From Thermoproteus sp. CP80 (GTDB lineage: Archaea; Thermoproteota; Thermoprotei; Thermoproteales; Thermoproteaceae), in contig NZ_LCWM02000001.1 of assembly GCF_002077075.2 (NCBI RefSeq), positions 6,724 through 70,723 on the forward strand: 64,000 bases of DNA, written 5' to 3'. Under the pieces are notes generated by a model that saw nothing but the letters and a program-made list of their open reading frames with translations, ran no database searches and had not been told where the DNA came from. Shown here piece by piece: positions 32,145-64,000 of this stretch. The position numbers and the translations under genes were made by a program. Every line of letters begins with the position of its first letter. Within the stretch, counting starts at the first letter, position 1.

Positions 32145-33347
32145 ATGGAGGCCGTGATCGAGCAGATCTTCGAGGAGGGGTTGACTCTGATCAAGGGGCC
32201 GCCGGGATCCGGCAAGACCGCGACGGCCGCGTGGGCCGCCAGCAGGCACAAGAACTCCATCTGGTTCACCTTCTACGAGAGCGAGTCGCGCCTCATCAGA
32301 TTCCTCTCGTCGCTGGCGCTGGAACCGCCGCGCCATATCTTCGACATGTTGTCGACCGGCAACCGCAAGGAGGCGGTCGAGGTCATCCTGAAGAAGATAC
32401 AGGAGGTGAAGCCGGACTTCGTCGTGGTGGACGGGCTCAACGCCCTGACGGCTGAAGGCGAGAGGGAGCTCGTGCACAACCTCTTCTACCACCTGCTCTC
32501 GTCGTTCGTGCCGGTCGTCTTGATACGGGAGGGCGACGAGGTCACGGCAACGGACTACATAGCCGACAACGTCCTCCTCCTGAGCTACAAGCCGTCCGAT
32601 AGGGGGATGGTGCGCTACCTCACCGTGCTCAAGAGCAGGGGGAGGTCGGTGGAGCCCAACGTCTTCCGCATGATCTTGGCGAAGGGAGGCCCCAGGCTCA
32701 TATCGGCGCCGCGCGAGGCCAGGAAGATCCCCTCCCAGCGCCTGACGACAGGCGCGCCCGAGATAGACAGGGAGATCAACGGAGGCGTCATCGCCGGAAG
32801 CTACGCGGTTGTGGCCGGCCCTCCGGACGGGCTGGCCAGCAAGCTGATGGTGCTGACCGCGGCGGCGCTGGCCGGATCGGGCAGAAAAGTCCTCTACCAC
32901 CACCACAAACAGATACCTACGTTCATGAAATTTGCCGAGTCTCTCGGCGTAGACCTCAGCTCCAAGAACTTGCTCTGGTACTACCACCCCGTGGAGGAGC
33001 ACGGAGACGTGGCGTGGTGGTACAGGTCGGCCGAGATGGTCAACGAGATGGGGGTCGATGTGCATTTCGCCGACAACTACGAACAGGTGCTGGCCGTGGC
33101 GGGGCTCGAGAGGGTGGCCGAAGCGGCCCAGATATACCAAGCATCGCTCCGCAAAGAGACGACGACAGTTCTCGTCATCAACTCGCTGACCGTGTGGCGG
33201 AGCGCCTCAAGGCTGTTGGGATCCATCCCCGACTACGTCTTCGTGTTCAAGCGCGGCCTCCTCACGGCATATACGCCGGAGCGCATAGAGCCGCTACGGT
33301 TCAGATACAAGCTGGTCGGACGCAGGGTCGTCTTCGAGAAGATTTAA
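32145..33347 (+). CDS. Two-domain RecA/KaiC-like ATPase, second P-loop degenerate
   Basis: 400 residues. The first domain has a proper Walker A, KGPPGSGKT (residues 17-25), and Walker B FVVVDGLN near 92-99. The second domain begins near residue 195 with TTGAPEIDREINGGVIAGS, the usual entry to a KaiC/RadA fold, but its P-loop reads AGPPDGLAS and lacks the GKT. It may thus be a regulatory or structural repeat. Its upstream region has aaaaattaat and it is followed by tRNA-Asp. Function unknown. Confidence 0.75.
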   Translation: MEAVIEQIFEEGLTLIKGPPGSGKTATAAWAASRHKNSIWFTFYESESRLIRFLSSLALEPPRHIFDMLSTGNRKEAVEVILKKIQEVKPDFVVVDGLNALTAEGERELVHNLFYHLLSSFVPVVLIREGDEVTATDYIADNVLLLSYKPSDRGMVRYLTVLKSRGRSVEPNVFRMILAKGGPRLISAPREARKIPSQRLTTGAPEIDREINGGVIAGSYAVVAGPPDGLASKLMVLTAAALAGSGRKVLYHHHKQIPTFMKFAESLGVDLSSKNLLWYYHPVEEHGDVAWWYRSAEMVNEMGVDVHFADNYEQVLAVAGLERVAEAAQIYQASLRKETTTVLVINSLTVWRSASRLLGSIPDYVFVFKRGLLTAYTPERIEPLRFRYKLVGRRVVFEKI

Positions 33348-33431
33348 CCCCAGGCAGGATGGGCTCCGTCCCTCGGGACGCCAAAGCCGGCAGCAGGAAA
33401 AATTTAAAAACGGTTCGATGGAGTCAGCCGT

Positions 33432-33559
33432 GCCCCGGTCGTATAGTCCGGTCAGCCAGCCGGCCCGGAATAGTATGCGGGCCTGAGCGTCCCTACGCGG
33501 CTAGTCGAGCCCGTGACCCGGGTTCAGGGGAAACCCGCCTAAGAATCCCGGCCGGGGCG
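33432..33559 (+). tRNA. tRNA-Asp (GTC) with three introns
   Basis: Acceptor strands GCCCCGG (33432-33438) and CCGGGGC (33552-33558) pair fully, with G73 at 33559. Removing three short inserts gives a 74-nt cloverleaf: about 18 nt in the D-arm after A21 (33455-33472), 19 nt in the anticodon loop (about 33486-33504, anticodon GTC split) and 17 nt in the T-loop after C56 (about 33526-33542). Anticodon stem CGGGC/GCCCG, loop CTGTCGA, variable TGAC, T-stem CCGGG/CCCGG. The 1-3 nt placement of each junction is uncertain. A tttaaaa box lies about 26 nt upstream. G73 and the short variable loop support Asp over Leu. Confidence 0.88.
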
Positions 33560-34490
33560 TCCAGCGAGCTCTTTCCGGCTGTCGTCGGAGCGGTCCGACC
33601 GAACACCGGCTGATTCCGCATGTCGGCCGTCGTCGGCTCCGTAGCTCCATATGTCATGTTCCTCTCCATATCTAGGCCGGAGGAGGTCGTTTTGTGATCC
33701 GATGCGCCGTCGCCCAGAACCGCGGCGCATGCGGGGCGCCTAGCAGATTTCGAATTGAGCGCCGTCCGGGCTGGCGCCGGCTCGGCCTTTTTGCCGTCTT
33801 TACGGCGGTTCGCCGACTTCTCCGCCGCGACTTGCGCTGCGGCACGTCGACCCCTTACAGGGAGCGCGGAGAGGAGCAACCTGAGGGCGAACCCCATAGG
33901 GGATACCCCCTGTCGAGACTTCCTTCAACGTACTCCCTGTAGGCGACCGTCGGGATGCCCACGTAGGGGATTGGGGATGCGGCGTAGAGACCATTCGAGA
34001 TCCTCCCGCGAATAGGCCGAGGCGGGGCTCAGGCGGGCCTCCGAGGTTCCTACGACATCTTTTTCTCTTCTCTACCTCCTATGTCTGTACCGCCAGATAC
34101 GGCGAACCCCGTTTTTATCGGCGATCGGCCCCCGCCTTCTCCCCGCCGCCTCAGCGACGGGCCGTCCCCTCAAGGCCCGAGGAGAAATCCCGAAGGCGCG
34201 GACGAGGCTAAGGAAATGACGCAGACGGAATCGAGACGGCGGGGGAGGGAGGCCGCGACCGTAAATGGAACCGAAACGTCGACCGTCCGGACGGCGCGAA
34301 GCATTACGGCCGGATCCCGGCCATAACCGTTTCGCTGTTTCCTCGAAGCAGGCATCGCCATGCGCAGAGTTGCCTCACACAACGTGAAGCCGACTCCGTA
34401 TAGAACGCCGTATGAGATCATCGTCTTCGGCTGACGACCATGGAACAGATAGGTGGATGGAGACAACCCAGATAGGAAGAGTTCGGTACA
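33560..34490. other. Hairpin-rich non-coding region between two tRNA genes
   Basis: 931 bases where no frame has the codon bias of neighbouring genes. Structure is dense: atgcgccg/cggcgcat near 33701-33730, cggcggttcgccg, gccgcgacttgcgctgcggc, ccccatagggg near 33892, and a long outer stem ggaa.ccgaaacg/cgtttcgctgtttcc (about 34267-34342) enclosing ccgtccggacgg and ggccggatcccggcc. A T-rich run (ctttttctcttctct, 34059-34073) may end a transcript from the left. A gtttttatcgg box (34110-34120) could start one on either strand. I tested for SRP RNA, RNase P RNA and 5S rRNA signatures by eye and found none. Confidence 0.45.
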
Positions 34491-34628
34491 TGCCCCGGCC
34501 GGGATTTGAACCCGGGTCTTGGGCTCTCTCCGACGCGCGAGGGCGCGTCCCGAGAGGCCCATATCCTTGACCGGACTAGACGACCGGTTGGAGTGGCCGG
34601 CGTGCCACGGCTCCCCGACGTCCGGGGC
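34491..34628 (-). tRNA. tRNA-Glu (CTC) with two introns
   Basis: On the minus strand GCCCCGG (34628-34622) pairs with CCGGGGC (34498-34492) and A73 is at 34491. A 25-nt intron (34550-34526) sits at the canonical 37/38 site, with an internal GACGCG/CGCGTC hairpin; the mature loop is CTCTCGA, giving anticodon CTC. A second, 38-nt insert (34621-34584) separates the 5' acceptor strand from T8 (site 7/8, or 5/6 to 6/7 because GG repeats at both ends). Without both, a 75-nt cloverleaf forms. A gtttaaaa box about 25-28 nt upstream of GCCCCGG on this strand supports the 5' end. Confidence 0.88.
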
Positions 34629-63449: not shown

Positions 63450-64000
63450 TCAGCCCTTGACGACGCCTATGGGCCTCTGCCTGACGACCTTCTTGGCGAA
63501 GCCGACCTGATGGGCGGTCTCGACGACGAGGTCGACGTTCTTGTAGGCCTCGGGGGCCTCCTCGCTTATGACCTCCGTCTCGGCGCTTCTGACTATTATC
63601 CCTCTCTTCTCCAGCTCGGACCTCACCCTCTGCGGCGGGAAGGACCTTATGGCGGCCTCTCTGCTGAGCATGCGGCCGGCGCCGTGAGGCGCAGTGCCGA
63701 AGGTTATCTTCATCGCGTCGTGGGTGCCCACCAAGATCCAGGAGGCGCTGCCCATGGAGCCCGGTATCAACACGGGCTGCCCCACCTCTCTGTACTTAGC
63801 CGGTATCTCCGGATGGCCCGGCGGGAAGGCGCGGGTGGCGCCCTTGCGGTGAACCCAGACCTTTCTCACGGTCCCCTTGTCGTCCACCTCGTGGCTCTCG
63901 AGCTTGGCTATGTTGTGGGCCACGTCGTAGACTATCTCGAGGCCCACCTTCTCGATGGAGCCGAAGACCCTCCTGAAGGCCTCCCTCACCCAGTGCATGA
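63450..64000 (-). CDS. rtcB: RtcB RNA ligase, C-terminal part (start outside window)
   Basis: About 183 residues are visible; the gene continues past 64000. Conserved elements: DVAHNIAKLE, HRKGATRAFPPG, GSMGSASWILVG and PHGAGRMLSREAA, where the His of HGAGR is the guanylylated residue. RtcB joins 2',3'-cyclic phosphate and 5'-OH ends and is the archaeal tRNA exon ligase. The intron-bearing tRNAs in this window are its natural substrates. Confidence 0.93.
   Translation of the reverse strand, partial: MHWVREAFRRVFGSIEKVGLEIVYDVAHNIAKLESHEVDDKGTVRKVWVHRKGATRAFPPGHPEIPAKYREVGQPVLIPGSMGSASWILVGTHDAMKITFGTAPHGAGRMLSREAAIRSFPPQRVRSELEKRGIIVRSAETEVISEEAPEAYKNVDLVVETAHQVGFAKKVVRQRPIGVVKG

Follow-up and report, generated by a model that had tools for sequence, protein, structure and literature searches.

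A three-intron tRNA-Asp gene with a split anticodon in Thermoproteus sp. CP80, read as a functional gene spliced at BHB motifs

The question raised by this locus

Does a 128-nt stretch (33432..33559, + strand) in the genome of Thermoproteus sp. CP80 (hereafter the host) encode a working tRNA-Asp, and if so, where exactly do the interruptions begin and end? The locus was studied within a window of 64 kb, which denotes the whole stretch of DNA that was analysed. A first-pass annotation had read it as an interrupted tRNA-Asp gene with three inserts, one dividing the anticodon, and both points are borne out by a unique three-intron solution. We put at about 95% the probability that a functional tRNA-Asp(GUC) gene lies here, one whose single precursor, judging from sequence, would lose three bulge-helix-bulge (BHB) introns to EndA and RtcB and yield a 75-nt tRNA.

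Anatomy of the tRNA-Asp gene

Excision of three strict-BHB introns from the 128 nt leaves a single flawless cloverleaf. Exon 1 (33432..33453, +) provides the acceptor 5' strand, the D-stem 5' strand and the D-loop up to position 20a, while exon 2 (33471..33485, +) holds the remainder of the D-arm and the anticodon stem 5' strand and ends with G34. Exon 3 (33505..33525, +) runs from U35 to C56, and exon 4 (33543..33559, +) from G57 to the discriminator G73. The four exons are collinear, on one strand and within 128 nt, which sets the locus apart from split or permuted tRNA genes. Once joined, they form a tRNA of 75 nt with the D-loop ...GGUCUA, the T-loop UUCGAAU, all nine conserved positions and a GTC anticodon; all 21 stem pairs (7+4+5+5) are present together with G73, as had been expected for the product with its inserts removed. 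CCA is not encoded immediately 3' of G73.

Upstream, a TATA-box-like element, TTTAAAAA (33403..33410, +), is centred ~26 nt 5' of the tRNA 5' end; it was judged by consensus only, and similar A+T-rich boxes precede other tRNA genes in the genome. A scan for promoters and terminators returned nothing, the model being bacterial and unsuited to archaea. A KaiC/RecA-like ATPase gene (400 aa, 32145-33347, +) lies just 5' of the tRNA gene.

Neither ARAGORN nor Rfam at its gathering threshold detected the tRNA-Asp gene, and neither reports any tRNA in the window; such a miss is expected for a gene with many non-canonical introns. Across the whole assembly, the Rfam tRNA model marks just 14 places, one of them in the window, just over 1 kb from tRNA-Asp, and so low a number implies that standard models miss interrupted genes here. 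Hence, when tRNAs seem to be missing from a Thermoproteales metagenome-assembled genome, this may be an artefact. The silence of both programs is also what would be seen if the tRNA-like sequence had arisen by chance or through faulty assembly and the locus held no tRNA gene. Genes with several non-canonical introns commonly escape these tools, however, and the 75-nt body matches the tRNA-Asp of relatives over its full length in a flawless cloverleaf, a comparison that already contradicts this idea and leaves it with a negligible probability.

The window also contains a tRNA-Glu(CUC) gene (34491-34611, -) with two strict-BHB introns, one of 21 nt at 3/4 (34588-34608) and one of 25 nt at 37/38 (34526-34550). 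The former resembles the 3/4 intron of tRNA-Asp in one of the relatives described below (G005).

BHB geometry of the three introns

The junctions were sought with a purpose-written solver, which required every intron to be 12-44 nt long, with 4/4 central BHB pairs and no fewer than 3 bp in the inner helix, a BHB being defined by 3-nt bulges flanking a 4-bp central helix. An exhaustive search of the locus gave six strict-BHB intron candidates, of which only one combination restores the full cloverleaf (score 30, against 19 for the next best). The same search gave no solution with more than three introns.

Intron 1 (AGCCAGCCGGCCCGGAA, 33454..33470, +) is 17 nt long and interrupts the D-loop at 20a/20b; its central helix is CCGG:CCGG and its inner helix GCC:GGC, closed by an AGCC loop (4 central, 3 inner and 1 outer pair). 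Intron 2 (AGCGTCCCTACGCGGCTAG, 33486..33504, +), of 19 nt, lies at 34/35 and thereby splits the anticodon (G34|U35C36), with GGCC:GGCT as central helix, GCGT:ACGC as inner helix and a CCCT loop (4 central, 4 inner and 2 outer pairs). Intron 3 (AGGGGAAACCCGCCTAA, 33526..33542, +), again of 17 nt, is placed at 56/57 and combines a GGGT:GCCT central helix with a GGG:CCC inner helix and a GAAA loop (4 central, 3 inner and no outer pairs). Lengths of about 18, 19 and 17 nt had been proposed; the second and third stand, whereas the BHB fixes the first at 17 nt.

The outer helices are weak throughout (1, 2 and 0 pairs), which corresponds to the relaxed BHB form that the crenarchaeal enzyme is able to handle (PMC4090602, PMC4731332). 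Introns 1 and 3, with one and no outer pairs, would therefore depend on this relaxed enzyme.

Could the locus be a decayed tRNA-Asp pseudogene with random inserts, its working counterpart lying in the unassembled part of the genome? The host assembly (1.56 Mb in 80 contigs) is only 77% complete, leaving 23% of the genome missing, and decayed tRNA pieces do exist in it, in the form of intronless 3' fragments at C2:21846 and C67:4588. Against this, the exon pairs and conserved positions are all intact, and every insert forms a strict BHB, which random inserts do not. Indeed, when the inserts were base-shuffled at constant composition (2000 trials, shifts of up to 2 nt tolerated), a strict BHB arose in 0.2%, 0.95% and 0% of cases for introns 1, 2 and 3, respectively, and never in all three together. 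Two findings had been named beforehand as fatal to the gene: junctions unable to form a BHB-like structure, or a second, uninterrupted tRNA-Asp gene combined with no spliced product from this locus. All three junctions form BHBs, and no other tRNA-Asp gene, interrupted or not, is detectable in the 77%-complete assembly. We consider a pseudogene very unlikely; the locus is probably the sole tRNA-Asp gene of the genome.

tRNA-Asp in related genomes

The tRNA-Asp gene was solved in 20 relatives, partly on the basis of an exact-pattern survey of 81 genomes of the class. The relatives include two genus mates of the host, Thermoproteus sp. UBA157 (G001) and T. tenax (G002), as well as Pyrobaculum sp. 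WP30 (G013) and P. oguniense (G014) from the same family. The mature host tRNA, which has the GUC anticodon and G73 of a tRNA-Asp, is ~91-97% identical to theirs.

This comparison bears on the junctions, which the first-pass annotation had placed differently, with an 18-nt first intron, a 74-nt mature tRNA and the T-loop UUCAAAU. Because the junction sequences repeat (AG...AG; A...A), several cuts are possible on paper, these among them, and UUCAAAU is the T-loop of tRNA-Asp in most relatives. The exhaustive scan, however, yielded a strict BHB for none of the alternative cuts, and the tRNA-Asp of relatives is mostly 75 nt long, with a D-loop reading ...GGUCUA or ...GGACUA, while UUCGAAU itself occurs in one of them (G033). 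Those earlier junctions are thus highly improbable: the mature tRNA has 75 nt rather than 74, as set by the BHBs and shared with the relatives, and the BHB-fixed 56/57 junction gives UUCGAAU in place of UUCAAAU.

The relatives' genes differ widely in their interruptions. Five have no intron (G001, G023, G026, G033 and G075), and eight have one at 3/4 (G002, G005, G007, G012, G013, G014, G016 and G018), so that T. tenax, unlike the host, carries a single intron at that site. The 3/4 intron is joined by one at 25/26 in G010; the 25/26 intron stands alone in G011 and G015 and is combined with one at 56/57 in G017. The anticodon-splitting 34/35 site recurs in three relatives: as the only intron in G003 and in Vulcanisaeta (G034), and in G009 together with a 59/60 intron that has 3/4 central pairs. 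G003, G009, G010, G017 and G034 share the tRNA body of the host, and the 34/35 and 56/57 sites recur among them, but they carry at most two introns each. Within this set, only the host tRNA-Asp has three; a further (fourth) intron in the relatives' tRNA-Asp was considered and rejected, two being the maximum found.

The varied combinations at 3/4, 25/26, 34/35, 56/57 and 59/60 fit, as far as sequence comparison can suggest, with repeated gain and loss. On this basis, the three host introns would be recent, separate insertions of a type known in Thermoproteales. With the host included, the set offers a clean comparative case, in which one conserved tRNA body is interrupted at six sites.

Other interrupted tRNA genes and the 56/57 intron family

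When the solver was applied to the other tRNAs of the host, most proved to have one or two introns; several had no solution, and low scores (26-27) were not trusted. Two genes equal tRNA-Asp in number, namely tRNA-Thr(CGU) (L098, C6:12919) and tRNA-Thr(UGU) (L102, C38:19429), each with introns at 29/30, 30/31 and 56/57. In both, the 30/31 intron, 1 nt from the 29/30 site, has 3/4 central pairs with one mismatch. Like tRNA-Asp, these two genes thus possess three introns including one at 56/57; unlike it, they have the other two at 29/30 and 30/31.

Intron 3 belongs to a 56/57 family common to other tRNA genes of the host. By motif, this family occupies ~13 tRNA loci, seven of which were solved with strict BHBs, and its sequences include AGGGGAAACCCGCCTAA in Asp, AGGGGAACCCCGCCCAA in Thr, AGGGGAACCCGCCTAA in Val, AGGGGAAACCCGCCCAC in Tyr and AGGCGAAGCCGCCCAA in Trp, besides others. 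A near-identical intron is present in Thr(CGU), Thr(UGU), Val, Trp, Ala and others. This likeness is partly forced by pairing with exon positions 51-54; what remains of it agrees with the transposition of introns reported in Thermoproteales (Fujishima et al. 2010, as cited in PMC4390854 and PMC4090602).

Splicing machinery and precursor folding

The host encodes one EndA catalytic subunit (182 aa, contig C32; E 6e-83 to 2zyz_B, a tRNA-splicing endonuclease chain of solved structure) and an RtcB ligase (591 bits; C77:70176-71486). The 3' part of the RtcB gene falls within the window (63450-64000, -), with its 3' end at ~63450, and the gene continues past the window end. A PF01974 search of the 77%-complete assembly brought up no structural EndA subunit. 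In T. tenax, recombinant EndA composed of catalytic and structural subunits cuts BHB substrates in vitro (PMC4731332).

From these elements, we infer that the locus would be transcribed as a single precursor, interrupted at 20a/20b, 34/35 and 56/57 by short BHB introns. The crenarchaeal heterotetrameric EndA would cleave at every BHB bulge and RtcB would join the exons into the 75-nt tRNA; whatever the order of splicing, the anticodon would be complete only afterwards.

Folding predictions do not by themselves favour the required structure. At 37 °C, the minimum-free-energy fold of the precursor reaches -63.7 kcal/mol, whereas constraining it to form the BHB pairs gives -47.3 kcal/mol, and the all-BHB fold is less stable than the minimum at 37, 60 and 85 °C. 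This is weak evidence, because the mature cloverleaf likewise lies above its own predicted minimum (-31.5 vs -42.8, same parameters). Folding order or chaperones may matter for BHB formation in the precursor, as these models suggest.

Relation to published multi-intron tRNA genes

Archaeal tRNA genes with as many as three introns are on record (PMC8450103, PMC4033280, PMC4390854), and our literature search found no paper on an archaeal tRNA with four. The intron number of tRNA-Asp had been called extreme, which is apt for a single gene, three being the maximum in the literature (PMC4033280, PMC8450103), and overstated for the lineage, since the same genome holds two more three-intron tRNAs. 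In T. tenax, 48 introns have been counted across 46 tRNAs (PMC4731332), and PMC3189178 gives non-canonical introns for 28 genes, with two introns in ten tRNAs and three in one. That three-intron tRNA, from strain Kra1, resembles the host gene in coming from the same genus and in combining three non-canonical BHB introns in one gene. Three BHB introns per gene are likewise found in Pyrobaculum islandicum tRNA-Pro(UGG) and P. calidifontis tRNA-Glu(UUC) (PMC4390854, PMC4090602). The 56/57 site is common to the former and the host gene, while the other introns of P. islandicum tRNA-Pro(UGG) are at 25/26 and the canonical site; in the host gene they are at 20a/20b and 34/35, with the anticodon itself split.

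With three-intron tRNAs published for T. tenax and two Pyrobaculum species, this kind of gene is already known, as is the concept of multiple transposable BHB introns in Thermoproteales. The 34/35 and 20a/20b sites were not found named in the literature covered, of which Sugahara 2007, Sugahara 2008 and Fujishima 2010 are not part, and we make no claim of a new site. The present locus adds a well-supported three-intron, anticodon-splitting gene to a short published list.

A repeat abutting tRNA 3' ends

An automated check of 25 host tRNA genes showed that in 15 of them, tRNA-Asp included, the 3' end is immediately followed by a repeat starting TCCANCGARCTCTTYCCGGCTRTCGTCGG. This repeat occupies 33560-33655 of the window and is further found at C6:12221, C14:1240, C31:118, C38:19250, C62:2738/3500/4079, C65:32271, C67:2826, C34:36149 and C13:2265. 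The host contains 18 pieces that match it, Pyrobaculum sp. WP30 five (where the repeat adjoins tRNA 3' ends in all three cases checked) and G018 one; T. tenax and the remaining members of the genus have none. Next to tRNA-Asp, the repeat is a short version that runs into a segment at ~33656-33693, other copies of which are not adjacent to tRNA genes (C65:33938, C45:946).

At C38, C62, C67 and C65, a convergent open frame of ~460-570 codons follows the repeat within 80-230 nt; the two examples tested have no Pfam or NCBIfam match. PaRep2b (PF07775) was considered as a repeat-linked protein and rejected, the PF07775 matches of the genome lying elsewhere. Ten loci were checked for direct repeats of the tRNA 3' end at the distal end of the repeat unit, and a same-strand copy was seen only at tRNA-Tyr (C67).

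It might be supposed that the 56/57 introns and the 3' repeat both stem from recent mobility aimed at tRNA genes, the introns persisting by breaking integration targets. T-loop introns show no association with the repeat, being present in 7 of 15 repeat-bearing genes and 6 of 10 others, and we regard this proposal as unlikely. The repeat leaves the verdict on the tRNA-Asp gene unchanged.

Three tRNA 3' fragments, at C2:21846, C67:4588 and C16:65525, consist of the T-arm and acceptor 3' strand only (Thr-like, Tyr-like and another) and could be integration scars. They lack T-loop introns, even though the 56/57 intron is present in the complete Thr and Tyr genes.
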